Origin: Mesoterricola sediminis
Lineage (GTDB): Bacteria > Acidobacteriota > Holophagae > Holophagales > Holophagaceae
NCBI RefSeq assembly: GCF_030295425.1
Contig: NZ_AP027081.1
Coordinates: 1,116,001 to 1,180,000 of the forward strand
Reading direction: 5' to 3'
DNA length: 64,000 nucleotides
The position numbers were made by a program, and so were the translations under genes. Every line of letters starts with the position of its first letter. Position 1 is the first letter of the stretch. Of the stretch, positions 22,910 to 52,185 are shown in pieces. A model generated the notes under the pieces. It saw nothing but the letters and a program-made list of their open reading frames with translations, was not told the DNA's origin and did no database searches.

Positions 22910-22984
22910 GGGGCTATCGTCTAGGGGTCAGGACGCCGCCCTTTCACGGCGGCAACACGGGTTCGAATCCCGTTAGCCCTACCA
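22910..22984 (+). tRNA. tRNA-Glu (UUC), attachment-site parent
   Basis: The cloverleaf has acceptor GGGGCTA/TAGCCCT, anticodon loop CTTTCAC with anticodon TTC, T-arm ACGGG-TTCGAAT-CCCGT, and encoded CCA. Its last 46 bp (22939-22984) recur at 25194, 33526 and 39599, marking it as an integration site. Confidence 0.96.
22939..22984 (+). repeat. tRNA-Glu 3'-end direct repeat, copy 0 (within the intact tRNA)
   Basis: These 46 bp from CCCTTTCACGG to the CCA end are the reference copy of the attachment repeat. They include the 3' anticodon arm, variable loop, T-arm and acceptor. Confidence 0.9.
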
Positions 22985-22988
22985 GCAG

Positions 22989-23022
22989 ACACCCTTGAGT
23001 AATCAAGGGTGTTCTTGTTTTT
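22989..23022 (+). terminator. Terminator after tRNA-Glu (flank type A)
   Basis: A 10-bp stem ACACCCTTGA/TCAAGGGTGT with loop GTAA is followed by TCTTGTTTTT. A near-identical copy follows the third tRNA fragment at 33574. Confidence 0.85.
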
Positions 23023-23049
23023 AATCGGCACGGCTCATTGCCTGGCCGG

Positions 23050-23070
23050 GCGTGCTCCACGAAATGCTCC
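23050..23070. repeat. Module-end repeat, copy 1
   Basis: The sequence CGTGCTCCACGAAATGCTCC, preceded by G, recurs at 33636 (identical), 38165 (one change) and 53694 (diverged). Copies 1 and 2 sit at the same distance after the tRNA-Glu terminator, so this is part of the type A module end. In the leftward frame it reads LEHFVEHA, possibly a gene-tail relic. Confidence 0.6.
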
Positions 23071-23091
23071 AAAATGCGGTGAGGTTCTGGG

Positions 23092-23979
23092 TCATGAACT
23101 GGGCCTTCCGCGTAAGATGCCCAGGCCACGTATGCAGGCCCGGACCACGGCCGTGATGGCCTCCGCGCGCCGGGAAACCTCCCCGCCGCCGCTTCCAGCC
23201 AGGACCTGGGTGACCAGATTCGCCTCCAGGCCTTGCCCCAGGATCGCCTCGACTTCATCTCCGAGTTCCGGGGGTGCGCAATTCCGGGCCCTCCATCCCA
23301 ATACCTCGGCGCCCGCCAACCTGGGGTCGCCGCCATTCCGCTCCACGGTCTCCATGTGGTTGTCATAGAGGGCTTCCAGGCCGATCAGGTCTTCCGCGCG
23401 CTCCAGGAGTTCCACCAGATCGACAGCATCCCGTCCGCGGGTCACGGCTCCCCGATCCTTCCATGCCAGGGCCTTCATGAGGATCATGGCTTCGACCTGG
23501 GGAATCGGCACCACCAGGCCGGGCTCCACCTGGATGGATTGGGTGTTTCCCATGCCGACGTGGAAGCCCCGCACGTCCATGACCACATCCTTGTCCTGCG
23601 GCCAGCGGATGATTCCACCCGGGGATTCGAGGGGGCCGAAGGGGACCAGGTCCACGGGCATCCGGACGCCGAACGCTTCCGCATGCGTATAGAGGCGGTG
23701 CTGGATGACTGGATCCGCCTCGAACCCAACACCTTCCAGGAGGATCTGTCTGAAGGATTCGAAGGACGCCCAATCCTCCACCTGGATACCGAAATCCGCA
23801 TCGCGCGTGGCCCGTCCGCGGGGCAGGCCATGCACGAAGACGAGGAGGATCTCGCGGGCCATGGCGCCCGTCAGAAGGTAGGGCGCGCCCAGGTCCCTGG
23901 CCGCACTGTCCACCCGGGCCAGGACCCTGACAAGCACGGGGTCCAGGTGGAGGCCTTCACGGAGCGGGATGGGTGACAT
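23092..23979 (-). CDS. Nucleotidyltransferase-fold protein, probable AbiEii-like toxin
   Basis: The 295-residue protein starts with a nucleotidyltransferase core: YLLTGAMAREIL (GS-like helix) and RATRDADFGIQV (DxD metal site). It overlaps the upstream AbiEi-type regulator by 23 bp, the gene order of type IV toxin-antitoxin pairs. In AbiE systems the NTase inhibits growth, and cyanobacterial/mycobacterial relatives modify tRNA. The GG of classical AbiEii (KGGTAL) is GA here, so it belongs to a divergent branch. It lies alone with its partner in module 1. Confidence 0.75.
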   Translation of the reverse strand: MSPIPLREGLHLDPVLVRVLARVDSAARDLGAPYLLTGAMAREILLVFVHGLPRGRATRDADFGIQVEDWASFESFRQILLEGVGFEADPVIQHRLYTHAEAFGVRMPVDLVPFGPLESPGGIIRWPQDKDVVMDVRGFHVGMGNTQSIQVEPGLVVPIPQVEAMILMKALAWKDRGAVTRGRDAVDLVELLERAEDLIGLEALYDNHMETVERNGGDPRLAGAEVLGWRARNCAPPELGDEVEAILGQGLEANLVTQVLAGSGGGEVSRRAEAITAVVRACIRGLGILRGRPSS

Positions 23980-25000
23980 GGATCATCCGGGCGAGGTCGA
24001 CATTGCGGGGATCACCGCTGGCAATCAGGTCCGCATGGACCAGGAGGGGAGGCACCAGGTCGGCAGGATAGCCCGGAGGATTCGGGAAATGCCAGAACCG
24101 CTCCAGGATTTCCACGTCCCCCGCAGGATCGGGACGCAAGCGAAGGTGGGTGGCCAGTTTCTCGGGCGGCACCACCGTGTAGAGGATGAATCGCGCCGGC
24201 TGCAGGTGACCTGTCAAACGATCCGCCGCGACCTCGCCTCCCCACTGGGCTTGCAGGGGATCGAGCGTGTCCGTCGGCCATCCCTGAGGGCGCAGGGCGC
24301 GGTAGCGTCGCGGATTCAAGTTGGGCCTCAGCTTGTAGGGATAATTGGCGATCCAGCCCTCCAGCAGCCGGTCCTCCTGGATGAGCGCGCGCTTTCGTCC
24401 CTGGTTCAGGAGGAGACCCGCCTCCGCCAGGTCCTTGAGAACCTCCCCGACGGTGCCGACCGCGACACCCGTCGCCCTTGCGAGTTCCCTGTAGGGGGCT
24501 TGCAGCAGGGCTGGATCCGCCAGGAGGCCGAACACCACCTGGAGCCCCTTGCGGTTGAACCCCTTGAAGGTGTGATTCCGCGCAAAGCGATCCTGGTCCT
24601 CCGGGGCCCTGTTGCCGATGATGCAGAGGTGCAGCCCTGGGAGCCTGAGGTGAATGTTGCCGGCGCCATCGATGAACTGTAGGCCCAACTCCACGCACCT
24701 TCGGGCCAGATGGGCCGTGAGGTAGGGGGTCACCAGCACCGTTCCTGCCGTCTGCTCCATCCTGCCCTTCAGGAGCGCCAACTCTTCCGTCCGCTGGATG
24801 CGCCGGTCGATGACCTGCAAGGCGGCCCCTCCAGCCTGCCAGCGGACCTCGAGTCTCCAGGCCTCTTCACCGGGAACCTGGATGGCAGCCAAGGTTAGAC
24901 CCAGCGCGGCAGGCAATGTCTCCTGGGCTGCTTCCAGGGTGGGGGTCCAGTTCGGGGCAGGTCCGGCTATCATGGATGTCCAATATTTTGCAGTGTTCAT
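23957..25000 (-). CDS. Type IV TA regulator, AbiEi-like antitoxin
   Basis: The 347-residue product has a domain around residues 70-160 with LVTPYLTAHLARRCVELGLQ followed by FIDGAGNIHLR, characteristic of the AbiEi_2 branch, and a winged helix at ~170-235 (YRELARATGVAVGTVGEVLK, DLAEAGLLL). It would repress its own operon and neutralise the NTase. Two 36-bp operator-like repeats cover the promoter and the first possible starts. ATG at 25000 is chosen because the -10 box lies upstream of it; 24973 is also possible, while 25081 would precede the predicted transcription start. Confidence 0.75.
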   Translation of the reverse strand: MNTAKYWTSMIAGPAPNWTPTLEAAQETLPAALGLTLAAIQVPGEEAWRLEVRWQAGGAALQVIDRRIQRTEELALLKGRMEQTAGTVLVTPYLTAHLARRCVELGLQFIDGAGNIHLRLPGLHLCIIGNRAPEDQDRFARNHTFKGFNRKGLQVVFGLLADPALLQAPYRELARATGVAVGTVGEVLKDLAEAGLLLNQGRKRALIQEDRLLEGWIANYPYKLRPNLNPRRYRALRPQGWPTDTLDPLQAQWGGEVAADRLTGHLQPARFILYTVVPPEKLATHLRLRPDPAGDVEILERFWHFPNPPGYPADLVPPLLVHADLIASGDPRNVDLARMIHVTHPAP

Positions 25001-25012
25001 GTTTCTTGGACG
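24977..25012. repeat. AbiEi operator-like repeat, proximal copy
   Basis: It runs TGTCCAATATTTT...TGGACG, with inverted ends TGTCCA/TGGAC. It matches the distal copy at 31 of 36 positions. Confidence 0.75.
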
Positions 25013-25057
25013 ATTTGCATTTAAGGATAAAGCTCGTTTGCCATCCGTCAAGCCGAT

Positions 25058-25093
25058 TGTCCAATATTTTACATTGTTCATGTATCATGGACA
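25058..25093. repeat. AbiEi operator-like repeat, distal copy
   Basis: It runs TGTCCAATATTTT...TGGACA, a 36-bp unit with perfect 6-bp inverted ends, 81 bp from the proximal copy. The leftward promoter at 25066-25094 is embedded in it. Confidence 0.75.
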
Positions 25094-25094
25094 A
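25066..25094 (-). promoter_or_regulatory. Promoter of the module 1 TA operon
   Basis: On the minus strand TTGTCC (25089-25094), a 17-bp spacer and TAAAAT (25066-25071) lie inside the distal operator repeat, so binding there should block transcription. Confidence 0.6.
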
Positions 25095-25193
25095 GATTCC
25101 GAATACAGCATGGGACACGCGCATCCTGTTTGATTGGATTTGTTTTTTATTAAAGCAAATAATAAGCTTGCCCATTTGAATGGCCAGGCTTGA

Positions 25194-25239
25194 CCCTTTC
25201 ACGGCGGCAACACGGGTTCGAATCCCGTTAGCCCTACCA
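25194..25239 (+). repeat. tRNA-Glu 3'-end direct repeat, copy 1 (module boundary)
   Basis: It is identical over 46 bp to 22939-22984 but lacks the 5' half of the tRNA, so it is not a tRNA gene. It separates modules 1 and 2. Confidence 0.95.
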
Positions 25240-25257
25240 AAGCAAGTGCAGGACATA

Positions 25258-25291
25258 GGAGCCGGAGAGACCCTCCGGCTCCTTCGTTTTT
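25258..25291 (+). terminator. Terminator after tRNA fragment 1 (flank type B)
   Basis: A 10-bp stem GGAGCCGGAG/CTCCGGCTCC with loop AGACC is followed by TTCGTTTTT. The AAAGCAAGTG flank and hairpin resemble those after fragment 3 at 39645. Confidence 0.8.
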
Positions 25292-25451
25292 GGCCGTTTT
25301 CCTCACTACTTCCTCATTCGGGGTACCCCGGGGTGGGGCGAGGACTGGCGAGGCCGGGCGCCGCGGTGCGTGGTCGGTCTTCCGGGGCGTTTTCCGGTGG
25401 ACGTCCAGAATGATGAATTGTTAGTGGGGCCTGAAGGGCGGCCACTACGGT

Positions 25452-26339
25452 TCAGGTCTTGAAGACATGCTCCCGGTGCCAGGCGAGAAAGACCGGATGG
25501 GGGCGGTGGTCGGGATGCTCAGGAGGCATCAACAGGCGGTCGGGACGGAGTAGCCTGCCCAGGTCGTCCGGCAGGCCTCGGGGGGAGACCAGGATACGCA
25601 GGTCATCCTCGATGGTCAGCAACCCACGGTCGAAGAGCCAGTGGAGGGTCCCGGTGAGCGCGAGGCCATTCCTTACCGAATCCGGGCCATCCGAGGCCAC
25701 GGGACGGATATGGGCGGCCTGGACTTCCGGCCTCCCTCCCCCATTGATGAGTCGCAGGCCGGAGAATGCGCAGGTTTCCCGGTAGGCTTCGCGGACCTTG
25801 CGCCTGAAGGCCTCATCCCTGAAGGGACGGGTGATGCACTGGGCCACAAGGGGTCGGGCGTCCCAGGTTACGGCCTCTTCCGGAATGCCCTGGGCCAGGG
25901 CCGCGTCCTTGGCCTCCCAGGGGGCCAACTGGCGATGGAATCCCTCCCGGACGATCGCTTCGAATTCGGAGGCCGGGAGGGTTCGAACGGCACGCCCGAA
26001 GGCGCCCTTGCTTGTGCTCCCGTCCGATTTCTGGAGGGCGGATTCCCAGTAGGTTCCATGCCCTTGGAATCCCACCGCCCGGTCAAACTCCTGGTACCCG
26101 TCCAGGTAGGCATAGTGATGCTCTGGGGAGCGTGGGTCGGACTCTACACGGAGCACCCTGGCCATGGCGAAATAGGCTTGCCTTCCGCCCCGCAGGCTTC
26201 GCCTGGGTTCGTAGTAGACGATCCAGTCCCCCACCGCCGCCTTGACCTGATTCAAATAGGTCTGGGGGAAGTGGTACCGGAATTCCGGCAGGTCGTCGTA
26301 GATCGAGCCCACCGACGCGGTGAAGACTGCATTGGACAT
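25452..26339 (-). CDS. HNH endonuclease, putative restriction-type
   Basis: The 295-residue protein has a C-terminal HNH_2-type domain: CAFSGLRLINGGGRPEVQAA, then HIRPVASDGPDSVRNGLALT and HWLFDRGLLTIEDD, with the His-Asn-His positions visible. The N-terminal ~130 residues (DWIVYYEPRRSLRGGRQAYF) look like a separate DNA- or modification-recognition domain. It lies downstream of the TOTE-type primase-helicase on the same strand; endonucleases are regular partners in such systems. The 122-bp gap from the preceding gene shows no promoter I can support. Confidence 0.82.
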   Translation of the reverse strand: MSNAVFTASVGSIYDDLPEFRYHFPQTYLNQVKAAVGDWIVYYEPRRSLRGGRQAYFAMARVLRVESDPRSPEHHYAYLDGYQEFDRAVGFQGHGTYWESALQKSDGSTSKGAFGRAVRTLPASEFEAIVREGFHRQLAPWEAKDAALAQGIPEEAVTWDARPLVAQCITRPFRDEAFRRKVREAYRETCAFSGLRLINGGGRPEVQAAHIRPVASDGPDSVRNGLALTGTLHWLFDRGLLTIEDDLRILVSPRGLPDDLGRLLRPDRLLMPPEHPDHRPHPVFLAWHREHVFKT

Positions 26340-26461
26340 GATGGACCAGGCTACCAGGTCCCATGGTTGGCCGGGCATCTGGTTGTTTGCGCCTGTAGAA
26401 CCCGATGCTGATCCTCGCCCACGGTCGCCGGCAAGGCGGACGCTCTGGATGACTATGGACG

Positions 26462-26881
26462 TCAATCCGCCATGACATCCGCGTCTGTATTCCTGAAGAC
26501 CTCTTCCCGGATGATCCGCTCCGTCGCCTCTTCCAGATAATCCCCCAGGGCCTCGGCCAACTGGCTGAATTCCGGCCAGAGGATGTCGTTCACGAACCGG
26601 GGGACCACCGACAGCATGACCGTCGTCCTCCGCTGGCCATGCCGGCGGTAGGGCTTCAATCCGTACCTGCGGCAGAGGGCCAGGAACAGCCTCACCTGCC
26701 ACCCGTCGGCCAGGGTGAAGCGCATCTCGATGGGGCGCTCCGTGGATTCGAACTCTCGCAGTTTCTCCAGGATGCGGTCCCGGGCGGCCATGGCCGCCGC
26801 GCGCTCCCCATGGGTGGAGGCGCCTGCGAACAGGGCCTCGATCTTCCGCAACTTCTCGCGCAATTCCTTTTCGGTGGTCAT
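26462..26881 (-). CDS. Small DUF2786-like protein
   Basis: The 139-residue protein begins with ELREKLRKIEALFAGASTHG then ERAAAMAARDRILEKLREFE, a pattern like DUF2786 helices, followed by a charged domain with YGLKPYRRHGQRRTTVMLSV. Its ATG overlaps the TOTE helicase stop by 4 bp, implying translational coupling and a shared pathway. No catalytic residues are recognisable; a nucleic-acid-binding accessory role is only a guess. Confidence 0.65.
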   Translation of the reverse strand: MTTEKELREKLRKIEALFAGASTHGERAAAMAARDRILEKLREFESTERPIEMRFTLADGWQVRLFLALCRRYGLKPYRRHGQRRTTVMLSVVPRFVNDILWPEFSQLAEALGDYLEEATERIIREEVFRNTDADVMAD

Positions 26882-29256
26882 GGCTCGTCCAAGGTGTCGG
26901 TGAACAGGGCGCCCTGACCAGAAGTCTCTCCAGGCTGGTACCCCATGGACCGGTAAGTCCTGAGGCGCTTTTCGAACATCTTCCGGAAGACGGGCACGGA
27001 GGCGTCCTGGTAGTCGTAAATCCTGACTTCCTCCTTGCCTTCTCGGAGGCGGTGGAGGCGCCCCGCGTACTGGACGAGGGTTCCCTTCCAGGCGATGGGC
27101 ATGGCGAGGACCAGGGTGTCCAGCCGGGGGTCATCGAACCCTTCGCCGATGTACCGCCCGATCCCGAGGATCAGCCGGGATTCCCGTTCCGGGACTTCGG
27201 CCAGCCTCTCAAGGGCGAGCCTGCGCTGCTTGGCGGGGATGCCTCCGTGGAGGATGACGACATGCTGGGCGGCATCCTGCAGGGCCTCCTTGAGGCGCTC
27301 CAAGTGGTCCTTCCGCTCCGTCAGGACGATCGGAGAGCGGCCTTCGCCCAGCGCGTCCCGGACGTCCTTGGCGATCTGGGCGTTCCTCATGGGGTCGTAC
27401 ACCAGCGCGGCGTAGAGGTCCTGGATCGCGCCTTCACCGAAGAACCGGGTCTCCCGCAGGACAAGGCGGTTGGCAAAGGGGTGGCCGTGTGAAGCGGACC
27501 CCTGGAAGCGGATCTCCCCACACTGGAAGTGAAGGAGACGCTGCAGGCCGTCCCGGCGGAAGGGGGTCGCGGTGAGCCCCAGAACGAACCTGGCCCGGAC
27601 GGCCCGCATGACCCGTTCGAAGGAGACGGCGGGGGCGTGGTGGCATTCATCGACGATCACGTGGCCATACTCGCCCACGAGGTCAAGCACGCCTTCCCGG
27701 GTGGCCAGGCTCTGGATCATGGCCACATCGATCCTGCCGGTGGCCTTGTGCCTGCCGCCGCCGATCTGACCGATCTCCTTGGCGTCCAGCCCCAGGAATG
27801 CCTGGAGTTGCGCGCGCCATTGCTCCATGAGCGGCTTCCGGTGGACCAGGATGAGCGTGTTCACGCCCCTGGCGGCGGTCATGAAGGCTCCCAGGACTGT
27901 CTTGCCCGTTCCGGGCGGCCCGACGAAGATCCCGATATCCTCCTCCATCAGCGCACGCGATCCCGCCTCCTGGAGGGCGGTCAGGGTTCCCTGGAACTCC
28001 ACCTGGATTGGCTGCCCTCCGAAGCGCAGATCTTCCACCTCAAGACGTGAACCGTGGACCGTGAGTAGGTTCTCCAGTTCCTTCCTGCAGCCTCGCGGCA
28101 GGGCGAGATGGGCCGGGTGGTCTTCGGCGGCACAGATGATTCTCGGAGTGCCGTTGGTGGAAAACCGCATGCCCTGTTTCTGGTAGAACTCCGGGTTCTG
28201 GAAGGAGGCCAGCCGCTTGGCCTCGGCCAGGAAAGCCTGGGGCAGCCCCGCCTTCTCCAGGAAGATCTGGCTGGAAAGCGTTGCTCCGACCCTTTCCGGC
28301 ATGGGGCCCAGGACCGCATTCCTGGCCTTGCCCGAAGGTGGGCGCTCCCAGGGCGTCAATTCGTAACCATCCTGGATGGCGTCGAAACGCACTCCCAGGA
28401 TCCGGCCCCGGCTCGAGGCCTTCTCGACGAGGGTTTCCACTTCCCCGGGCGCCATACGTTCCACCGTGGCGAGGTAGGTCCAGGGATCCGCATGGGGTTC
28501 CAGGGCCTCGTCCAGGAACAGGGTGTTGCCGGTCTTGCGGGCCTCGAACTGGAGGGGCAGGACGATCAGGTTTCCGAAGCCCCCCTTGGGCAAGGTGTCC
28601 TGGTTGGGGAACAGACGGTCATAGGAGCTCATGGCCAATTGATGACGGCTGTCCATGGTTTCGGTCAGGAGGAAGCTGCCGAGTTTGCGGGCGAGGATGG
28701 CCGGAACCGGCTCCCGGAAGAAGATCCACGCGTGCCCGCCACTCCCGGACCGGGACCGTTCGAGGGAGACGGGGACGCCCCAGGACCGGCACGTTCGGGC
28801 GAAGGCCTGCAGGTCCTCGCGCCAGCCTTCCTTGTCGAAGTCCACCGCCAGGAGCCAGCAGGTCTCGTCCCGAAGGAGCGGATACAGTCCGATGACATGC
28901 CTTCCCTGGAGATGATCAAGAACCACCTGGTCGGTCAGGGGCGCGTACTCCGGTTCAGGGCCCTGAACCAGGCAAACGGGGGAATACCCTGGTTTTCCCG
29001 CCCTTTCCGGTTTCCTGGAGAACCATTGGCGGGGGTAGACATCCTCCCGGCCACGGAACAGGCTCCTGAACAGGGCGACCTTGGATGCGGGGGTTGAAGG
29101 GCCGAGGGCCTCTCCGGCCCTTTCGGAAGAGGCATGGGGAACCTGGATCCGCCGCAACGCCAGGATTTCGGCCCGCAACCGATCCGCCTCCTCGAGGTTT
29201 TCCGCAAGCAGGCGTTCCAGGTCCTGCAGGCGCAACGACAGGGCGACTTGATCCAT
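26878..29256 (-). CDS. TOTE-type conflict-system protein: archaeo-eukaryotic primase plus SF2 helicase
   Basis: The 792-residue protein has an N-terminal coiled coil (1-40) and then an AEP primase domain: FRGREDVYPRQW, LTDQVVLDHLQGRHVIGLYP, the DxD metal motif in LAVDFDKEG (~135), SRSGSGGHAWIFF (~170), and PNQDTLPKGGFGNLIVLPLQ. The C-terminal half is a superfamily II helicase: Walker A VGPPGTGKT (~444), VDECHH (~534), LGLTATPFRR and QYAGRLHR (motif VI). This combination defines the TOTE-type primase-helicase of predicted anti-element conflict systems. It is coupled to the DUF2786-like gene and divergent from the 379-residue gene. Confidence 0.85.
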   Translation of the reverse strand: MDQVALSLRLQDLERLLAENLEEADRLRAEILALRRIQVPHASSERAGEALGPSTPASKVALFRSLFRGREDVYPRQWFSRKPERAGKPGYSPVCLVQGPEPEYAPLTDQVVLDHLQGRHVIGLYPLLRDETCWLLAVDFDKEGWREDLQAFARTCRSWGVPVSLERSRSGSGGHAWIFFREPVPAILARKLGSFLLTETMDSRHQLAMSSYDRLFPNQDTLPKGGFGNLIVLPLQFEARKTGNTLFLDEALEPHADPWTYLATVERMAPGEVETLVEKASSRGRILGVRFDAIQDGYELTPWERPPSGKARNAVLGPMPERVGATLSSQIFLEKAGLPQAFLAEAKRLASFQNPEFYQKQGMRFSTNGTPRIICAAEDHPAHLALPRGCRKELENLLTVHGSRLEVEDLRFGGQPIQVEFQGTLTALQEAGSRALMEEDIGIFVGPPGTGKTVLGAFMTAARGVNTLILVHRKPLMEQWRAQLQAFLGLDAKEIGQIGGGRHKATGRIDVAMIQSLATREGVLDLVGEYGHVIVDECHHAPAVSFERVMRAVRARFVLGLTATPFRRDGLQRLLHFQCGEIRFQGSASHGHPFANRLVLRETRFFGEGAIQDLYAALVYDPMRNAQIAKDVRDALGEGRSPIVLTERKDHLERLKEALQDAAQHVVILHGGIPAKQRRLALERLAEVPERESRLILGIGRYIGEGFDDPRLDTLVLAMPIAWKGTLVQYAGRLHRLREGKEEVRIYDYQDASVPVFRKMFEKRLRTYRSMGYQPGETSGQGALFTDTLDEP

Positions 29257-29306
29257 GCTGCTCCTTCCAGGTTCAATCTAGCATCTGGCCAGGATGCGGC
29301 GGGGGC

Positions 29307-30446
29307 ATGAGCGAATACCAGTACTACGAGTTCCAGGCCATCGACAGGGCCTTGACGGCGAAGGAGATGGAGGAGCTGCGCCGCCATTCCGCAAGGGCCC
29401 GAATCACGCCCACCTGCTTCACGAACCACTACGAGTGGGGGAGCTTCAAGGGAGACGAGGACGCGTGGATGGAAAGATACTTCGACGCATTCCTCTATCT
29501 TGCCAACTGGGGCACGCGGATCCTTCAGTTCCGTCTCCCTGCGGAGGTCCTGGATCCTGTCAAGGCGGGGGCTTACTGCTTCGGAGAGGGCGCCAGCGTA
29601 AGGAAGAAGGGCGGGAAGACCATCCTGCGATTCGTATCGGAAGATGACCAGGGGGATGACGACCCCGAAGGTGCAGGCCATCTGGCTTCCCTGATCGGGG
29701 CCAGGGATGGGTTGATGAAGGGGGACCTGCGGGCCCTCTACCTGGGGTGGCTGCTGATGGTGCAGGGGGAGGAACTCGACGAGGGCGAGGTGGAGCCTCC
29801 CGTTCCGCCGGGCCTTGCCGGATTGAGCGGCGCCCTCGAAGGCATGGCTTCCTTCCTTCGCATCGACCCCGACCTGATCGCGGCTGCGGCCGCCGGCAGC
29901 GCTCCGCTCCAAGCCCCGGACCTGGAAAGGAAACAGGTGCGCGCATGGATCCAAGGCATGCCGGCGGAGGAGAAGGATCGATTGCTTACCGACCTGCTAC
30001 TGAAGCCGGACCTGGGCCCTATCTTTACGCTCCAGGCCTGCGTGACCAGGGGAAACGTCCCGGAGGCCCCGCCGGGCCTGCGTGGAACCCGGACGGTGGC
30101 CGAACTCCAGGCACTCGCCCAGGCCCGCGGCGCCGATCGAAGGAGGCTGGAGCAAGAAGAACGTTCGAGGAAGCTCCGGATCCGCGAACAGGAGGCAGCC
30201 ATCGCCCGGGAGGCGCATCTCGACCGGTTGAAGGGGCAGGAACATGGACTCTGGGGCCAGGTCGAGGCCCTCTCCGCGACCAAGGTTCCCAGGAACTACG
30301 ATCGCGCCGTTGCCCTCCTGGTGGACCTGCGGGACATGGGGTTCCGCTCGAGGGCCGGTGATTTCGCAAGTCGGCTCGAGGCCTTCCGGACCAGGCACGC
30401 CCAACAGCCCTCCCTCACGAGACGCCTGGACAAGGCCGGCCTTTAG
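29307..30446 (+). CDS. Conserved protein of unknown function next to the TOTE gene
   Basis: The 379-residue soluble protein starts MSEYQYYEFQAIDRALTAKE and contains ITPTCFTNHYEWGSFKGDED. Then come an alpha-helical middle and a long charged coiled coil at ~270-330 (RRRLEQEERSRKLRIREQEA). No catalytic motif or membrane segment is visible. It is divergent from the TOTE gene with 50 bp between starts, which suggests co-regulation. I recognise the N-terminal block as belonging to a conserved uncharacterised family but cannot assign a function. Confidence 0.75.
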   Translation: MSEYQYYEFQAIDRALTAKEMEELRRHSARARITPTCFTNHYEWGSFKGDEDAWMERYFDAFLYLANWGTRILQFRLPAEVLDPVKAGAYCFGEGASVRKKGGKTILRFVSEDDQGDDDPEGAGHLASLIGARDGLMKGDLRALYLGWLLMVQGEELDEGEVEPPVPPGLAGLSGALEGMASFLRIDPDLIAAAAAGSAPLQAPDLERKQVRAWIQGMPAEEKDRLLTDLLLKPDLGPIFTLQACVTRGNVPEAPPGLRGTRTVAELQALAQARGADRRRLEQEERSRKLRIREQEAAIAREAHLDRLKGQEHGLWGQVEALSATKVPRNYDRAVALLVDLRDMGFRSRAGDFASRLEAFRTRHAQQPSLTRRLDKAGL

Positions 30447-30453
30447 GGCTCCG

Positions 30454-31554
30454 TCAGCGCATGCATGCCCTGCATCGGCAAAGCCCAGTGTTCCCGTAGC
30501 GCACCACCCAATCCCGGGTCCGGTGACCGCAGTCCTTGCAGGTCAGGAGACCCTCAGTCTCCGGGCCCATGCGGGAGGGGCCGTCCCTGTGGTCCGGACA
30601 CGAGGTGGCCGGGCCCGCGGCCTGGGCTGCAACGTCGGCCTCCTCTGGGGTCCTTGCCTCCTGGGCATCCTCTTCTTCGGGTTCAATGTCGTCATCATCC
30701 TCGTCGTCCCACCGGTCCCATCGTGGAATGTGGTCCTTTTCCGCCCTGATGGCCGCCTGGCGGCGCTTGCGCTCATCCTCCTCCCGCTTCTTCGCGGCGA
30801 GGGCCTCCTGGTGGCTCATCCATGCCTCATGTTCGCCCGGATGCACAAACTCTCCGGTCCGAGGGTGGAGCAGGATCGCCTCCAGGGGATGCTCCAGGAG
30901 GGTGGCCTGGTGGCCCTGGGGCGGGTGCCGCATCCAGATGCCGCGGCAGGTTGTGAGATGGCGCTTGGCGGGGTCCAGGAAATGGAGGGACTCGTCGCCG
31001 AACCCATACAGGCCGTCATAGGCGGAGTGTTCCGTCAATTCCCGGAGGGTCGCCGACAGGGTGATGCGGCCCTGGCCCGGCTCCTTCACGAGCAATCGCG
31101 CATGGAACACCGGATGCAGGAGCACTCCCAGTTTCCTGCAGGCTTTCAGCATGGCCTCTCGTACGTCCGGCTTGACTGCGGCGGGAACCACCCACCAGGC
31201 AAAGGTCGGTTTGCCAGCCCTTTCCACCCAGCAGTCCAGGGGCCGCGGAAGGCGGGGGGCCGTCTTCTCCAACTGGATGGAATCGGGGAACCGGACCCTG
31301 AGCCAGCCATACAGCAGGGCCCGACATTCGAGGACATCCAGAGAATCCTTGGCCCTGGGGCAATCACCGCCGGCCCGGTGAGCAAAATGCCAGATTCTCT
31401 CCTCACCGGCCCGGACGGTCACGGGCTGCCGGCAGCCTTCGCAGACAATCCGACCCTCCAGGGCCTCCCGCCGCAGATGGTCTGCCCTGGACAGACCGTC
31501 CTCCTTCAGGAGGATCACCTGGCTGGAATCGCTCGTCTGCATGGCGGTGAGCAT
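30454..31554 (-). CDS. CoiA-like protein with C-terminal zinc ribbon
   Basis: The 366-residue protein has the CoiA-like N-terminal zinc motif C38-x2-C41 and WHFAH (55-59), as in competence CoiA proteins, followed by a nuclease-like region (DSLDVLECRALLYGWLRVRF). The middle is helical with a very acidic stretch (EDDDDIEPEEEDAQE), and the end has a Cys-rich ribbon (CKDCGHRTRDW ... CRCRAC). A DNA-processing role is inferred. A truncated, frameshifted copy of its first ~180 residues lies at 37580-38131. Confidence 0.75.
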   Translation of the reverse strand: MLTAMQTSDSSQVILLKEDGLSRADHLRREALEGRIVCEGCRQPVTVRAGEERIWHFAHRAGGDCPRAKDSLDVLECRALLYGWLRVRFPDSIQLEKTAPRLPRPLDCWVERAGKPTFAWWVVPAAVKPDVREAMLKACRKLGVLLHPVFHARLLVKEPGQGRITLSATLRELTEHSAYDGLYGFGDESLHFLDPAKRHLTTCRGIWMRHPPQGHQATLLEHPLEAILLHPRTGEFVHPGEHEAWMSHQEALAAKKREEDERKRRQAAIRAEKDHIPRWDRWDDEDDDDIEPEEEDAQEARTPEEADVAAQAAGPATSCPDHRDGPSRMGPETEGLLTCKDCGHRTRDWVVRYGNTGLCRCRACMR

Positions 31555-31573
31555 TCTCGGCCTCCTGGAGGAA

Positions 31574-32533
31574 TCAGCCTTTCAGGTCCCGGTGGCGCTT
31601 CACATTCAAGGTCTTCCAACGCAGCAGGGGGGAGCTTGCGATCCTGCGCTGCAGGTCGGGATCCGAGGTCAGCCATTCGGGATGGATCTCCCCCTCCTCC
31701 CAGATGGCCCGGATGAATTCCGATTCGTGCCCGCGCACGGGAAGCAGTCGGCGCAGGCCTGAACGGGCTTTTTCCAATTGGGTTGCCGGGTCAGGTTGCA
31801 CATCGGAGGCCCGCAATAGGGGGCGAACCATGCGGTCGAACTCATCGCCGGCTGGATCGGCTGATTCCGGCGTGGCCGTCCTGAGGTCCAACGCTCGGCT
31901 TGCAGCCCCAACGATGACGAAGGGTAGCCTGAGCCGTTCCAGGTCCAGCCCGGGCTGATCGAAAAGGCGGGCGGCATCAACGATGTCCCTTGCCGCCGTT
32001 CGGTCAAGGAGCGCGATCAACTTCCCGGCCGCCAAGTCGTGAAGGCCCATCACCCGGACGTTCTTTGCCTGGAATGAACCCAGGTCCCTGGAATCCAGCC
32101 ATTGTGGCGATTCCAAAGGCACCCGATGGAGGAAATTGAGGTCAACCTCAAGGCTTCCCCCCTGCCCTTGGGCGCCGGCGTAACGCAGCTGCCACTTCCC
32201 TCCGGCGTGATCGGACGGGGCCTTGCGGATGGTGAAGTCGTCCTTTTCGAAGATGGACCTGAGCCTTGCCTCGAGGCCTGGGCGCTCGGCCTGCATGTCC
32301 TCCTTATCCTCCGCGCCGATGTAGTTCAGGTCGATGTCCACGGAGAGGCGAGGGATATCGAAAAGGAAAAGGTTCAAGGCCGTGCCACCCTTCAGGGCGA
32401 GGCGATCCCTCAGGAACGGATCCTGGAAGATATGGTTGAGAAGGCTGATGAGACGGATGACCTTCTCCAGGGATTCGGGCCTGAAGCCTGTGGCTTCGGC
32501 CTCCTTCATCAGGCGTTCCACGGACAGTCTCAC
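31574..32533 (-). CDS. abiEii: AbiEii nucleotidyltransferase toxin
   Basis: The 319-residue protein has the classical AbiEii motifs LALKGGTALNLF and RLSVDIDLNYIG (GG-T and DxD), QLRYAG and EVDLNFLHRVPL, and LHDLAAGKLIALLDRTAARD. It is the growth-inhibiting partner of a type IV toxin-antitoxin/abortive infection system. GTG at 32533 overlaps the abiEi stop (GTGA) and has GGGAGGAG upstream, so it is preferred over ORF extensions inside abiEi. Confidence 0.9.
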   Translation of the reverse strand: MRLSVERLMKEAEATGFRPESLEKVIRLISLLNHIFQDPFLRDRLALKGGTALNLFLFDIPRLSVDIDLNYIGAEDKEDMQAERPGLEARLRSIFEKDDFTIRKAPSDHAGGKWQLRYAGAQGQGGSLEVDLNFLHRVPLESPQWLDSRDLGSFQAKNVRVMGLHDLAAGKLIALLDRTAARDIVDAARLFDQPGLDLERLRLPFVIVGAASRALDLRTATPESADPAGDEFDRMVRPLLRASDVQPDPATQLEKARSGLRRLLPVRGHESEFIRAIWEEGEIHPEWLTSDPDLQRRIASSPLLRWKTLNVKRHRDLKG

Positions 32534-33333
32534 GACGGCTCCTCCCAGGCCCGGTTCCATAGTGCATCCGGCACGATCAAATTCCATCGTGCGGAAAGCC
32601 GGCCGCCCTTCTGCCGGTCCAGGTAGTGCCTGCCCTGCGGGCGGAGGTCCTCGAGTTGCTGCAGGCTGCCTCCCTCGAACGCGAAGTGGTCCTGGTGCTG
32701 CTCAAGGAAAAATCCCGTGAGCGCCGATGTGGTGGCGTTTCCAAGCAGGCAAAGGTAGGCGTGGACTTCCCCCACGTCCACCCATCGCATCTTCTCCAGG
32801 GATCGCCAGGCTTCCTCCCAGCCTCCGGAAAGATCCGGGCGATCCAGGCAGTCGACGAGGGTGCGGGCCTGGGTGGTGACAACCAGATCGACGCCGTGCC
32901 AATCCATCTTCTCCACTCCCATCTGGAAGGCGCTCCTGCCGAGGGCCCTCCTTGGCTGCACCGGGTGGAAATCCAAACCCCGGAATTGCCACCGCCGCAG
33001 GTTTCGTGGCACGAGCACCTGAATGGTCTCGAACGAAGAATGGGCCAGGCCGTGCATCTCCAGGGCCGAATGGTAGGCGAGGATCCCTTCGGGGAAGGCC
33101 CGATGGGCGACAAGGTATCCATCCAGCGGCGATCGTTCAGGTGTGCTTCCCGGCCTGACAGTAGCGAACAGGCCTCTCCGGATGGCCAGGATCCTGCCCG
33201 TTTCCTGGTGATATTGCAGAAGGGCATTGACGGTCTTTGGACTTTGAGCCCGTCCCGACTCCTCTGCGAGGTGGCGCACCATTTCCGTCCGAGTGAACAC
33301 CGGGTGGAGCGCGAAAAAATCGGAGAGGGACAT
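32530..33333 (-). CDS. abiEi: AbiEi antitoxin/autorepressor
   Basis: The 267-residue protein has the AbiEi order: an N-terminal winged helix (PVFTRTEMVRHL, KTVNALLQYHQETGRILAIR, RGLFATV) and the C-terminal antitoxin domain (LAYHSALEMHGLAHSSFETI, ARTLVDCLDRPDLSGGWEEA). It should repress its own promoter. A dyad of 10-bp half-sites overlaps the -10 box upstream. ATG at 33333 is chosen; a TTG four codons upstream is weaker. Confidence 0.9.
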   Translation of the reverse strand: MSLSDFFALHPVFTRTEMVRHLAEESGRAQSPKTVNALLQYHQETGRILAIRRGLFATVRPGSTPERSPLDGYLVAHRAFPEGILAYHSALEMHGLAHSSFETIQVLVPRNLRRWQFRGLDFHPVQPRRALGRSAFQMGVEKMDWHGVDLVVTTQARTLVDCLDRPDLSGGWEEAWRSLEKMRWVDVGEVHAYLCLLGNATTSALTGFFLEQHQDHFAFEGGSLQQLEDLRPQGRHYLDRQKGGRLSARWNLIVPDALWNRAWEEPS

Positions 33334-33351
33334 GGTTGAATCCAATATCTG

Positions 33352-33376
33352 AAAGTCCTAAAAAAATTAGGGCTTT
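33352..33376. promoter_or_regulatory. AbiEi operator-like dyad
   Basis: AAAGTCCTAA-N5-TTAGGGCTTT is a dyad with 9 of 10 half-site matches. It covers the predicted -10 box, consistent with autorepression by AbiEi. Confidence 0.65.
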
Positions 33377-33392
33377 TGATGCTCATTGTCAA
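33364..33392 (-). promoter_or_regulatory. Promoter of the abiE operon
   Basis: On the minus strand TTGACA (33387-33392), a 17-bp spacer and TAATTT (33364-33369) form a near-consensus promoter 31 bp upstream of abiEi. Confidence 0.65.
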
Positions 33393-33525
33393 CTATGTCT
33401 TTTCACCTTGCTGCTCAGGACTTGGCTGGAACCCCTTGCAGACGGGCATTCGAGCCCATTTGGCTCTTTGGCTATTCAACATAAATCCTTGCAATGCTTG
33501 AGCCATGGTCAAACTCAAACTCAGT

Positions 33526-33569
33526 CTTTCACGGCGGCAACACGGGTTCGAATACCGTTAGCCCTACCA
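33526..33569 (+). repeat. tRNA-Glu 3'-end direct repeat, copy 2 (module boundary)
   Basis: It matches 44 bp of the tRNA-Glu 3' end with one change in the T-arm (AATACCG for AATCCCG). It separates modules 2 and 3. Confidence 0.93.
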
Positions 33570-33573
33570 GCAA

Positions 33574-33607
33574 ACACCCTTGAGAAATCAAGGGTGTCCT
33601 TGTTTTA
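33574..33607 (+). terminator. Terminator after tRNA fragment 2 (flank type A)
   Basis: A 10-bp stem ACACCCTTGA/TCAAGGGTGT with loop GAAA is followed by CCTTGTTTT, nearly identical to the terminator after the intact tRNA-Glu. Confidence 0.8.
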
Positions 33608-33635
33608 TATCGGCATGCCTCCTGGAGGAAGGGCG

Positions 33636-33656
33636 GCGTGCTCCACGAAATGCTCC
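33636..33656. repeat. Module-end repeat, copy 2
   Basis: It is identical to the 21-bp unit at 23050-23070 and placed the same way behind a type A terminator. Confidence 0.65.
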
Positions 33657-33802
33657 AAGCACTTAGGCTCGGGAAACCGGGCCTTTTGCTTGCCATCGGG
33701 CATATGGCGGGCATGGACGCTCCGGAACGAGGGCGACCGACCCGGAAGGGAAGGGGTCTTTGGTCTGCGCCATTGCCCCGCCGTTGCCCGGGCGCCAGAC
33801 CT

Positions 33803-34267
33803 TCATCGGTCCCGGGCGGGGGCCGGAGATACCCGAACCTGGGCCTTGGGCGGGTGTGGGGCATGCCGGGTTGCGGATTTCCATGCGGCCCGGAAAGCCC
33901 CATAGGGTTTGAAGCAGTCGCTGTCGGCGGTGTCCCACCAAAGGATCTGACCGTTGTGCCGAAGGACCACCAGACGATCCAGAAGGGTGGAGGTCGAAGC
34001 CTCGCCAACGCAGTCCGGGTCAAAGCGAACAGCGAACATGAAATAGCCTTTCGTCGACTCCTCCAGGTCCGCGAAAAGGCACCGCCCGTGAATGGTGGGC
34101 CAGACCTTGTCTTTGATCACCTGTGCGATGACCCGCTGGGCGGCGGCCTCAGGTGAGAGGCCCCGGACCAACGTCTCTGGGCGCGGGGCCCTGGGCCACC
34201 CGGGTGTTCCCTGGAGCAGCAGGGGCAGTCCAACGGACCAAACCCAGGGGTGAAACGCAGGTCTCAA
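33803..34267 (-). CDS. Small hypothetical protein, possibly secreted
   Basis: The 154-residue product has a hydrophobic N-terminus (WVWSVGLPLLLQG) that may be a signal peptide, and a compact domain with GRCLFADLEESTKGYFMFAV and LVVLRHNGQILWWDTADSDC. It starts 7 bp after the DUF4139 gene stop, so it appears to be the last gene of a three-gene operon. I do not recognise the family. The Pro/Arg-rich last 20 residues may not be part of the fold. Confidence 0.55.
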   Translation of the reverse strand: MRPAFHPWVWSVGLPLLLQGTPGWPRAPRPETLVRGLSPEAAAQRVIAQVIKDKVWPTIHGRCLFADLEESTKGYFMFAVRFDPDCVGEASTSTLLDRLVVLRHNGQILWWDTADSDCFKPYGAFRAAWKSATRHAPHPPKAQVRVSPAPARDR

Positions 34268-34274
34268 GGGGCGA

Positions 34275-35708
34275 CTACCATTTGACGCGGACGCGATAGG
34301 TCAGTTTGGCCGCCCCTTCCGGAGGCACCGTGACCATGAATTGACCTTTCCCGGCTTCGATTTTCTGGCAGGGATGGGTGCTCTGGATGACCTCCCAGTC
34401 ACCGGGCATGGGCTCGATGACCTTGACCGTCACAGGCTCCTTCTTGGCGTTCCTCAGTTCGACTTCGAAAGCGCTTTCGTGGATGTTCCCGAATTTGCCT
34501 TGGCGTTCAAGCCGCTTGTAGTCGGTCTGCTTGCGGCGGGCAGTGAGGTCGAAGGCTTCGCCCATTTTGGCCTTCACCACTTCCCACTTGGGCGTGTGGT
34601 CGATGCGGTCCTCGCCGATGAACTGGGCCCGGCCCTCGGCGTCCCGCTTGTACATGCGGAGGATTCCCTTGGGGAGCGGCATGCCCAGGTGCGCAGCTTC
34701 GCGGTTGTCGAAAAGGACGTAGACGGCGACCTTCAGTTTGTCGCCCTGATCGGGGTAGGGGTTGAAGTAGTAGAAACTGTCCCCGTCCAACTGGTATTCC
34801 TTCCGGATCGGAACCCCCTGGGCCGAGAGGAGGGCGACCTGCTTGGTCTGGTTGTCCGCGATGGTGGTTGGGTGTTCAAGAGTATAGAGGTGGTACTCGA
34901 ACAGCCCCTCCTCCTTCATCCGTGGGGGAGCCAAGTTCGAAACGGCAAGGCCATCCACGGAGAAATTGTTCCCTCTAGATCGTTGATCCTTGACGGTATG
35001 AACGTCGCCAGCCACCAGCTGCAGCTTCGCCTCCGGGTAGGCCGCCCCGCTCTGGTTGGTGAGGGTCACCCACGCATTGAGGTCCAGGGCGCTCTCGTCC
35101 GCCGTCAGATTGGCCACGTAGTCGGCCCGCCAGGATAGCCCCGTGGTCAGGTAGCTGAGTTCGACCTGCTGGGGGCCCAGGGAGCCGCTGTGAAGGCTCA
35201 CGACCAGCGTGGGCTTGGCCCTGAGGGTCCCGGGGACTTTGGGGAAGACCAGGCGCCCAGGGATGGATGTTTCGATGCGGTCAGGGAACTGGAGGACCAC
35301 GCCGTTGTTGGTGGCCAGGACCGTGGCCTCTTCGCGGAGTTCGCGTGTCCCCGCATTGTCCGGGTTGGGGAGGGTCCGTACTACGGTGACCTTGTCCCCG
35401 ACGTATTTCTCGAGCAATTTTTGGGGGGTGAGGAGGTCGAAATCGAAGTTCTGCTCGGCCACCCAGAATCCTGTGGGCGCGGTTAGGTTCCTCAGCAGGG
35501 CCGTCTCCGGCCGGATCTTTGCCGAGACCTCCTGGAAGGCGAGTTTCTGGTCGCCCTTGGCAAGGGCCACCTTGCGCTGGTCCTTCACGAGGGCCAGGTT
35601 GTCGTTGTAGATGGTCACTGCGAGGGAAGTGTTGTCCCTCAGGGTTGTGGCGGGCTCCTGGGCCACAAGGAGAGCGGGGAGGGCGGGGATGATGAGGAGA
35701 GGGCGCAT
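34275..35708 (-). CDS. DUF4139-domain exported protein A
   Basis: The 477-residue protein has a short signal peptide (MRPLLIIPALPALLVAQ), an N-terminal DUF4140-like segment (VTIYNDNLALVKDQRKVALA) and a DUF4139 beta-rich body (VELSYLTTGLSWRADYVANL, LVAGDVHTVKD, YTLEHPTTIADNQTKQVALL). Family members are mostly uncharacterised mucoidy-inhibitor-like or envelope proteins. It is 18 bp downstream of a longer paralogue on the same strand. Confidence 0.82.
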   Translation of the reverse strand: MRPLLIIPALPALLVAQEPATTLRDNTSLAVTIYNDNLALVKDQRKVALAKGDQKLAFQEVSAKIRPETALLRNLTAPTGFWVAEQNFDFDLLTPQKLLEKYVGDKVTVVRTLPNPDNAGTRELREEATVLATNNGVVLQFPDRIETSIPGRLVFPKVPGTLRAKPTLVVSLHSGSLGPQQVELSYLTTGLSWRADYVANLTADESALDLNAWVTLTNQSGAAYPEAKLQLVAGDVHTVKDQRSRGNNFSVDGLAVSNLAPPRMKEEGLFEYHLYTLEHPTTIADNQTKQVALLSAQGVPIRKEYQLDGDSFYYFNPYPDQGDKLKVAVYVLFDNREAAHLGMPLPKGILRMYKRDAEGRAQFIGEDRIDHTPKWEVVKAKMGEAFDLTARRKQTDYKRLERQGKFGNIHESAFEVELRNAKKEPVTVKVIEPMPGDWEVIQSTHPCQKIEAGKGQFMVTVPPEGAAKLTYRVRVKW

Positions 35709-35726
35709 CAGGGCTCCCAGTGCTGG

Positions 35727-37451
35727 TCAGTCGTGGGATTCATCGTTGGCAACCGGCTCAGGTGCGGTCCGGACGGTGTATCGGAGAAGGGCTTTCCCGT
35801 GGGCCGGGACCTTCAAGGGGAAGTCGAAGGCGTTGGTCCCTGACCGCATTCCCCGGCGGCTCGAACGGAGCAGGGTGGCCTGGGCATGGACGGGCTCCCG
35901 CACGGTCACGAGGGAAGGGGTGGCGAGGGCGGAGGATACTTCGACTTCGATGGTGTAAGTCCAGGCGATTTGGCGCTCCCCGTGACCTTTGCCCTGGTTC
36001 GAATGGATGGCCCGCTTCTCAATCGGGCGGCGATCGACCTTGAAACCCCTGGCTGGCCCCAACGGCAACTCAAGGGTCTCCCCGGATGGCGTCATCGGAA
36101 ATGTGGTGGCCGCTCCCACTGATTCAGGGATGGGAAATTCGAAGCCGGAAGGATCCCGGTAACGGATCTCCAGGTCTCCTGCCGGTAGGGCTCGACCCAG
36201 GTGGGACTTGGGGCTGTTGATAAGTCGGCCGACTCGCTGGACGCGGGGGTGATGTCGTGCGGTCCATTGGGCCATTTGCCTCTCCCCCTCATTGATCTGC
36301 TCCCATGCCTGTCCATAGGCGGCAGCCCCGTCCTCCGGGCCTCTGGGGAGGATGGGGAGGGGGGAGAAGGACACTTGGCCGGGTTCGGGCTGAAACGTCT
36401 CGGAATCCATGAAGGCCGAGGCACTGTCCATCGCGTAATCCGGGTACGGAGATTCGGCGAGCAAAGTCTGCTCGAGGGGGATCCGCCTCCCCTGTAGCAG
36501 AAGGAGCTGTTTTTTGGACCTTGCTGGGATTGAGACGGGCCTGTCCAAGGTGAAGACCGGGTACTCCGACACCTTTTCTTCCTTGAAGGCCGGAGGACCT
36601 GCGGCGGTGGCGGCAACACATTCGACGGTGGCTGTGTCGAGCCTCGGCGCATCGGGGTCGGGTGGAGGGTCATCGTCCACGAGGGTCGGCAATCCTGCGA
36701 CCAATTGGAGGGTGGTGTCCGGAAGCGCGGCATCGCCCTCGTTTTCCACCGTAGCAAAGACCGTCAGGTCCAAATGGGACCCATCCGGGTCCAGGTTGGC
36801 CACGTAGTTGGCAGACCATTTCAGGTCAGTCGCCGAGTAGATCAAAGTCAGGTTCCTGGGGCCCGGAGACGGAGCCAGGACGTCCTGGAGGAGGGTCGGG
36901 GAGGGGCGGAGGCTGCCCGGGACCTGGGCGAAGGCAACCTCTCCAGGGGAGGCGGGGCGGAAACCCTGCTGCGTGGCGATGACGACATTCGGGTCAGGGG
37001 CCTGAACAAAGGCTCGCGGAAGCCGGGCGATGCGCGCCAGGGGGTCGGCATCACGCCGCAGGGCAGGCCGGAGGAGGGGCAGGGAGGCCAGGCTTCCCGT
37101 CGCGTCCCTGCTCCCATCCTTCCCCATCACCCAGGCCGGTGATCCAAGGCTCTTCTCCAACAATGCCCGGGGGCTCAACAAGTCGAAGATGTAGTTCCGC
37201 TCGAGGATCTGGACTTCGTTCGCCACGTCCACCAGGGTCGCGCTCTTGGCTCTGATCGTGGGGAGGAGGTCTCCGAAGGCAAGGCGGGACCGCCCCGAGG
37301 GAAGGTCGATGCGCCGGGTGTCGCGGATGACCGCAATCCCGTTCTGGTAGAAGGTCGCGCCCAGGTTCAGCCGGTCCTTGGCGGTCGTGCGGGTCTCCTG
37401 GCCTTGGAGGACAAGGCAGGCCAAAGGGATGGCATAGGGGGCGATCTTCAT
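35727..37451 (-). CDS. DUF4139-domain exported protein B
   Basis: The 574-residue paralogue of the next gene has a signal peptide (MKIAPYAIPLACLVLQGQ), then FYQNGIAVIRDTRRIDLPSG, LTLIYSATDLKWSANYVANL and VFTLDRPVSIPARSKKQLLL. It carries an extra ~100-residue insert (around 360-450) absent from protein A. The start at 37451 gives a clear signal peptide, unlike the upstream TTG/GTG choices. It heads the leftward operon of module 3. Confidence 0.8.
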   Translation of the reverse strand: MKIAPYAIPLACLVLQGQETRTTAKDRLNLGATFYQNGIAVIRDTRRIDLPSGRSRLAFGDLLPTIRAKSATLVDVANEVQILERNYIFDLLSPRALLEKSLGSPAWVMGKDGSRDATGSLASLPLLRPALRRDADPLARIARLPRAFVQAPDPNVVIATQQGFRPASPGEVAFAQVPGSLRPSPTLLQDVLAPSPGPRNLTLIYSATDLKWSANYVANLDPDGSHLDLTVFATVENEGDAALPDTTLQLVAGLPTLVDDDPPPDPDAPRLDTATVECVAATAAGPPAFKEEKVSEYPVFTLDRPVSIPARSKKQLLLLQGRRIPLEQTLLAESPYPDYAMDSASAFMDSETFQPEPGQVSFSPLPILPRGPEDGAAAYGQAWEQINEGERQMAQWTARHHPRVQRVGRLINSPKSHLGRALPAGDLEIRYRDPSGFEFPIPESVGAATTFPMTPSGETLELPLGPARGFKVDRRPIEKRAIHSNQGKGHGERQIAWTYTIEVEVSSALATPSLVTVREPVHAQATLLRSSRRGMRSGTNAFDFPLKVPAHGKALLRYTVRTAPEPVANDESHD

Positions 37452-37579
37452 GGGGTTGAATGAAGTATCGCCGACATTGCCTGCGGAAGCCAGAACGGCC
37501 CCCGGCGGCCAGCAACTCCTGGGCGGAAGGTGAGAGGGTTTCCGCATTAGGAAGCGTCAGGCCCCCGCTAGGGGGCCTG

Positions 37580-38131
37580 AACGCTTACAGACAGTCATTG
37601 GCCGAGTGCTTCGTCAATTACCTGAGGGGCGCCGAAAGGGTGATGCCGCCCTGGCCCGGTTCCTTCACGAGCAGCCTCGCATGGAACACCGGATGCAGGA
37701 TCGCCCCGAGCTTCCCGCATCCCTTCAGCATGGCTTCCCTCACATCCGGCTTGACCGAGGCGGAACCACCCACCAGGCCAGGGTCGGTTCGCCAGGCCTT
37801 TCGACCCAGCAGTCCAGGGGCCTCGGAGGACGGGGGATGACTTTTCCGGCTGGATGGCGTCGGGGAACCGGACCCGAAGCCATCCATAGAGCAGGGCGCG
37901 GCATTCGAGGACATCAAGGGAATCCTTCGCCCGGGGGCAATCGCCGCCGGCACGGTGGGCAAAATGCCAGATCCGTTCCTCCCCGGCCCGCACGGTCACG
38001 GACTGTCGGCAGTCTTCGCAGACGATCTGTCCTTCGAGGGCCTCCCTGCGCATTTGGTTGGCCCTGGATGGACCATCTTCCCTCAAGTGGATCACCTGGC
38101 TGGAATCGCGGGTCCGGATGGCGGTGAGCAT
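37580..38131 (-). pseudogene. Broken partial copy of the CoiA-like gene
   Basis: From ATG at 38131 the frame reads MLTAIRTRDSSQVIHLREDG, then IVCEDCRQSVTVRAGEERIW and HFAHRAGGDCPRAKDSLDVL, closely matching the intact gene at 30454. At about 37838 a 1-bp loss shifts the frame and near 37760 a second 1-bp loss occurs; the shifted frame recovers VKPDVREAMLKGCGKLGAIL and LVKEPGQGGITLSAPLR. Similarity stops near 37580, leaving roughly the first 180 of 366 codons. Confidence 0.85.
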
Positions 38132-38164
38132 TCTCGGCCTCCAAAAGGAGGGTCCTGTGATCAG

Positions 38165-38185
38165 GCGTGCTCCACGTAATGCTCC
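38165..38185. repeat. Module-end repeat, copy 3
   Basis: It matches the 21-bp unit of copies 1 and 2 with one change (GTAATG for GAAATG). It lies between the CoiA-like relic and the ATPase gene, so an old module end may be buried inside module 3. Confidence 0.55.
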
Positions 38186-38220
38186 CATTCGTACCGAGAA
38201 GGCATTGACAGCCCTGACGC

Positions 38221-39450: not shown

Positions 39451-39465
39451 GGGGCTGCCTCCGTT

Positions 39466-39568: not shown

Positions 39569-39598
39569 GCACTTGTGCGTCGAGCGACCGGAACCAGC

Positions 39599-39644
39599 CC
39601 CTTTCACGGCGGCAACACGGGTTCGAATCCCGTTAGCCCTGCCA
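39599..39644 (+). repeat. tRNA-Glu 3'-end direct repeat, copy 3 (right boundary)
   Basis: It is 46 bp matching the tRNA-Glu 3' end with one change (discriminator A to G). It closes module 3. Confidence 0.94.
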
Positions 39645-43319: not shown

Positions 43320-43326
43320 GCTTCCC

Positions 43327-45169: not shown

Positions 45170-45173
45170 CCAG

Positions 45174-51158: not shown

Positions 51159-51168
51159 GCCCGCGTTT

Positions 51169-52134: not shown

Positions 52135-52185
52135 GCTGGATTCCTCCCACGTCAATTGGGACAATACGATTCCACGTTCCGTCCA

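Follow-up and report, generated by a model that had tools for sequence, protein, structure and literature searches.

A tRNA-Glu-bounded gene cassette with a primase–helicase core in Mesoterricola sediminis as a candidate mobile DNA-conflict module

TOTE conflict systems comprise TPR, OB, TBP and Effector components (PMC12458937). Zabrady et al. report a CAPP_A type that includes a helicase domain, and also non-CRISPR relatives, mostly of the same architecture, that reside on mobile elements (PMC8211822). AbiE is a type IV toxin–antitoxin system (PMC3985639), and CIMEs, which take part in tandem accretion at tRNA genes, are elements that have retained their att sites and lost their recombinase (PMC5704250). 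Here we analyze a 64,000-nt stretch of the Mesoterricola sediminis contig NZ_AP027081.1, hereafter the window, with a block of seven genes at 25452–33333 that a preliminary description had taken for one multi-gene defense system built around a TOTE-type primase–helicase. Genomes are given as G-numbers (G000 is the own genome) and DNA stretches from relatives as L-numbers. All seven genes are real and lie at, or very near, the positions first assigned to them; the cassette boundaries, formed by copies of a tRNA-Glu 3′ end, had been overlooked. We favor, at roughly even odds (a probability of about 0.5), the reading that the block is a mobile DNA-conflict module with a primase–translocase core and exchangeable parts, on a CIME-like cassette, cassette B, in an accretion array of three cassettes. 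The genes have the look of exchangeable immunity cargo and not of a single fixed machine.

The core enzyme is a protein of 792 residues encoded at 26878–29256 on the minus strand. Pfam detects an AEP-TOTE domain (PF22548, 2e-82) as well as ResIII, DEAD and Helicase_C domains, which supports both halves of the AEP-plus-SF2 helicase first proposed. The helicase half (ResIII/XPB-like) matches XPB, Rad25, and RadD; among the best matches in the PDB are XPB-type helicases, and those of the AEP half include chains 7nqf and 7nqd. In the window copy the motifs D139xD141, SGxGGH175, Walker A, and DECH are intact, as are the C-terminal arginines, and all of them are shared by a set of 21 linked proteins to which this copy belongs. 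With its catalytic residues intact, the window AEP is a putative primase/polymerase. The helicases of G256 and G271, both of the same genus, and of G259 are 64 to 66% identical to that of the window; a 4-Cys insert present in G256, G271, and several others is absent from the window protein. Of 10 relatives that had been picked for length, 8 have a DUF559 nuclease fused at the C terminus and 1 has a PLD nuclease. The AEP family is present in 65 of the 396 genomes of an unselected sample of the phylum. On plasmids, the helicase is a solitary accessory gene. The complete AEP–SF2 fusion was found in no phage record, and a viral origin was rejected because viral contigs match the helicase half only.

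Comparing the enzyme with the described systems, it becomes apparent that the Pfam name of its AEP domain, AEP-TOTE, is what it shares with TOTE systems. By Pfam, cassettes A to C contain none of the TPR-OB and TBP genes by which TOTE is defined (PMC12458937), nor do TPR, OB, and TBP rank with the top families in 126 scanned neighbors of relatives. Membership in a TOTE system is therefore not borne out, and the Pfam name is the only basis of the TOTE label, although the neighboring protein P379, described below, may hide a remote helical-repeat version of such a partner. The helicase type of CAPP_A is a closer likeness, with an AEP related to 7nqf and 7nqd followed by a helicase, on mobile DNA without cas genes; the neighbors P379, CcbP-like, P139, and AbiE and the DUF559 and PLD fusions are not described in the available text of that paper (PMC8211822). 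The Pfam family also has distant members that consist of the AEP only, and these adjoin Cas1, Cas2, and Cas6; beside the window helicase, Pfam detected no cas1 or cas2 in cassettes A to C. Judged by its sequence, the protein is better named a putative non-CRISPR CAPP-type primase–helicase, CAPP_A being the closest known kind. We found in the literature neither enzymology for this branch nor an established role for these widespread non-CRISPR primase–helicases.

The boundaries of the module are set by an intact tRNA-Glu (TTC) gene at 22910–22984 on the plus strand (ARAGORN), the 3′ end of which is the attachment-site core. This 44-nt end occurs four times in the window, against 0 expected in shuffles. 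After the tRNA itself, plus-strand copies follow at 25196–25239 (0 mismatches, the left boundary of cassette B), at 33526–33569 (1 mismatch, its right boundary), and at 39601–39644 (the fourth, at the end of cassette C). The copies divide 22985–39644 into cassette A (22985–25239), cassette B (25240–33569), and cassette C (33570–39644). The flanks 3′ of copies 1 and 3 are alike, as are those after copies 2 and 4. An identical 24-nt sequence lies shortly after copies 1 and 3, at 23049–23072 and 33635–33658, and a near-identical form is present in G256; they may be arm sites of a recombinase or the ends of elements. No tyrosine recombinase (PF00589) was matched within cassettes A to C, whereas in G027, G124, G076, and G249 a tyrosine integrase gene lies within about 0.5 to 1.5 kb of a copy of this tRNA 3′ end. 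The array thus looks like accreted elements whose integrase was lost, or never present, as in CIMEs. The likeness to CIMEs and tandem accretion at tRNA genes extends to the retained att-like copies, the missing integrase, and the tandem cassettes; the difference is that no remnants of transfer genes were seen in the window cassettes (PMC5704250). Elsewhere on the chromosome of G000, six equal-scoring genes for tyrosine recombinases of 316 residues are scattered, perhaps as an insertion element.

Comparable cassettes are present in relatives. In G256, a helicase–P139 pair lies between tRNA-Glu (CTC) and a 44-nt copy with 1 mismatch (7985–8028 of L251), spanning 5.1 kb with no integrase nearby, and the end sequences resemble those of the window. 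The G256 cassette also encodes a Schlafen/AlbA_2-domain protein (11271–12980 of L251), divergent from the helicase. In G066, the helicase has a copy of a tRNA-Asp 3′ end on either side, and an array of eight tRNA-Ser 3′-end copies in G191 contains a broken helicase along with a CcbP-like gene; the contigs of G066 and G191 have no PF00589 match. The eight G191 copies are all on the same strand and extend over about 15.5 kb (from 7105 of L307 into L308; G191:C20 92104–107551). In G259, a set of AbiE, YhcG, and helicase genes adjoins an integrase gene; L297 is a natural example of the set AbiE–YhcG–helicase.

Divergent from the helicase gene, across a 50-nt gap, lies the gene of P379 (29307–30446, plus strand), a protein of 379 residues. 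It had been called uncharacterized, and it has no match in Pfam, PHROGs, NCBIfam, or PADLOC. In its AlphaFold2 model (pLDDT 88.9), the N-terminal domain is alpha/beta and the C terminus helical, with one helix of 45 residues. A Foldseek comparison with the PDB returned nothing at E ≤ 0.001, and the best VIA-align score (Z 6.2, over 73 residues of 7sgl_C, a segment of a DNA-PK complex) is one that the tool warns is possibly meaningless. The family is unnamed and widespread; its matches in GTDB genomes exceed 540 loci. In 22 of the 80 P379 loci closest to the window protein, a set selected on that similarity, the helicase is nearby, across many phyla. Full-length helicase genes are upstream of P379 in 18 of 18 cases; 13 of them share its strand, and 5 have the divergent arrangement of the window. 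Besides P379 itself, only the helicase and a CcbP-like small protein recur beyond six or seven of these loci. The gene of the CcbP-like protein, in L092, L110, L114, L124, and others, lies between helicase and P379 or directly 3′ of the helicase. Natural sets close to complete are helicase with P379 in L063 and L070, helicase, CcbP-like gene and P379 in L092 and L124, and a DUF559-fused helicase with P379 in L138. Moreover, P379 and helicase distances correlate (Mantel r 0.64, 0 of 5000 permutations, 21 loci, with the species tree not factored in), and the linkage switches 13 times on the P379 tree, at least 7 of them on well-supported branches. We put somewhat short of evens, as a tentative proposal, that helicase and P379, often with the CcbP-like gene between them, form an undescribed immune system with exchangeable nucleases in many phyla, which in this phylum would be carried on integrase-less, tRNA-bounded cassettes.

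The remaining genes of the block recur in a different manner. The gene of P139, a protein of 139 residues (26462–26881, minus strand), has its start codon inside the helicase stop codon, in a 4-nt ATGA overlap at 26878–26881, so the translational coupling proposed for the two genes is real in sequence terms. Its designation as DUF2786-like was rejected, as P139 matches no Pfam family at E ≤ 0.1 and its prophage relatives match none at 0.05 either. The AlphaFold2 model of P139 (pLDDT 82.7) shows a helical hairpin and a small alpha/beta domain in the order beta-alpha-beta-alpha, for which a fold search gave no match. P139 stands beside the 64% identical helicase of G256, and its family is otherwise mostly unlinked to the helicase. 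Its relatives are found on conjugative plasmids and in prophage regions, where one, in L268, overlaps a RecD2-like helicase gene. The HNH endonuclease next to P139 (25452–26339, minus strand, 295 residues) starts properly at 26339 and not at the start of the long open reading frame. The nuclease assignment is supported by Pfam HNH_2 in the C terminus (3e-11), which also matches the PDB structure of TagI (8e-5); at the N terminus, where EVE/SRA–HNH type IV restriction enzymes have a reader of modified bases, the best profile match is the EVE-type 2p5d (UPF0310), weak at E 0.39. As a constant partner, HNH was rejected, since none was found next to the other helicase loci examined. The Cys-rich, CoiA-like protein first described is likewise supported: the 366-residue protein (30454–31554, minus strand, Cys-rich at its C terminus) contains a CoiA_N match of 33 residues (2e-10, Pfam). 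The expectation that its family would accompany the helicase elsewhere held in one case, a homologue adjoining the helicase in G271 of the same genus. CoiA was rejected as a common partner because in the phylum sample the family is essentially confined to the own genome, and none was found in the plasmids or viral contigs searched.

The last two genes form the type IV toxin–antitoxin operon that had been predicted. The AbiEii toxin, a nucleotidyltransferase with the motif GG-x15-DID (31574–32587, minus strand), is detected by Pfam (3e-29) and PADLOC, and the overlapping AbiEi antitoxin/regulator (32530–33345, minus strand) matches AbiEi_1 at the Pfam threshold but at 2e-87 in PADLOC. Overlapping AbiEi and AbiEii genes and an AbiEii with a GG-x15-DhD motif are features shared with the described AbiE system (PMC3985639); the window pair differs in being embedded in a primase–helicase cassette and is predicted from its genes. 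In G259, an AbiE pair accompanies the helicase, with a YhcG nuclease gene upstream of the helicase, and other AbiE genes lie beside the helicase in G288, in Arcobacter, and elsewhere. Since AbiE and the helicase are found linked in several lineages, the addiction role first suggested is plausible, with AbiE as a co-traveling addiction or abortive unit. P139, CoiA-like, and AbiE genes each recur beside the helicase in the same bacterial family but never all together. One fixed multi-gene system was therefore rejected; with these partners recurring singly and HNH never, the block suggests a core enzyme with optional partners.

The same pattern could also arise if the tRNA-Glu hotspot had gathered independent units of one or two genes, such as helicase, HNH, AbiE, and P379, as unrelated cargo. 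The HNH gene that never recurs and the single recurrences of P139, CoiA, and AbiE in different relatives are in line with this explanation, as are P379, which elsewhere is mostly solitary and has the helicase and the CcbP-like gene as its only recurrent partners, and unrelated genes in the array such as DUF4139. However, the helicase–P139 overlap is kept in two species, P379 is found beside the helicase far above chance with full-length helicase genes always on one side, and AbiE and helicase diverge alike from their G259 counterparts (63 to 64% and 65% identity). We regard unrelated cargo as unlikely, although it is the most probable of the alternatives.

Less probable again is a replication or maintenance module, in which the AEP–helicase and P139 would copy the excised cassette and AbiE would stabilize it. 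Many mobile elements encode helicase-fused AEPs, which are believed to serve in their replication (PMC5862659), and the att-bounded cassette and the prophage relatives of P139, one of which overlaps a RecD2-like helicase gene in L268, agree with such a role. Against it are the absence of the full fusion from phage records, the solitary helicase on plasmids, the lack of an integrase or relaxase in the cassette, and the DUF559 and PLD nuclease domains of relatives, which are ill-suited to a replicase. Least probable is a DNA repair or damage-tolerance accessory, like PrimPol on ICETh2 of Thermus thermophilus, on the island by chance: the XPB, Rad25, and RadD matches and the addAB mutations and fragmented DNA that accumulate in T. 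thermophilus Ppol mutants (PMC9751324) would suit it, but the patchy AEP family, the nuclease fusions, and the toxin–antitoxin neighbors fit conflict better than housekeeping.

For the favored conflict module, we infer a defense function from the observed gene content, motifs, boundaries, and recurrent partnerships. The SF2 motor would move along invading or abnormally replicating DNA and expose single strands, which the AEP may prime or copy. A nuclease would then cut the DNA; in relatives this could be a domain in cis (DUF559 or PLD) or the product of a next-door gene (YhcG in G259), and HNH could fill the nuclease part in cassette B. P379 may serve as an adaptor or sensor and P139 as a helicase accessory, with AbiE as a possible backup abortive or addiction unit that would retain the cassette in the cell. 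Several observations weigh against this reading. Defense-type genes may be linked through the islands they share and not through a common action, HNH does not recur beside the other helicase loci examined, and no fold could be assigned to P379 or P139. The absence of the 4-Cys insert from the window helicase could mean an altered or weakened function. In addition, the P379–helicase Mantel correlation carries no species-tree correction, and most helicase loci of the unselected phylum sample are without P379. In that sample P379 adjoins the helicase in 2 of the 11 P379-bearing genomes, a count that leaves out weak profile matches covering the C-terminal 60 residues only. Compared with 22 of the 80 closest loci, this makes the pairing recurrent yet optional, and the expected co-occurrence of the 379-residue family with other helicase loci is borne out across many phyla but not as a rule.

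The other cassettes carry different genes. Cassette A consists of a second AbiE pair (23092–25081), of the AbiEi_2 type and unrelated to that of cassette B, with AbiEi at 23957–25081 and AbiEii at 23092–23979, both on the minus strand. Two 35-nt direct repeats (89%) at 24977–25092, upstream of the AbiEi gene, are possibly its operator, and relatives of the pair occur near the tRNA-Glu hotspot in G256, G124, G263, and G268. Cassette C contains two DUF4139 genes, a DUF4143 ATPase gene, and a broken paralogue of the CoiA-like gene (37579–38126) with about 82% DNA identity to that of cassette B. Neighboring the array, 42489–53010 encodes a thioesterase, an AurF-type oxygenase, a phosphopantetheinyl transferase, transporters, and an open reading frame of 2005 residues, and looks like a biosynthesis cluster of the peptide-synthetase type.

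Overall, the locus offers testable parts for this group of primase–helicases, namely the recurrent pairing with an unnamed family, the exchange of DUF559 or PLD domains and stand-alone nucleases for one another, and the linkage with AbiE. Cassettes that are bounded by tRNA copies and lack an integrase suggest a way in which such genes move and accumulate.

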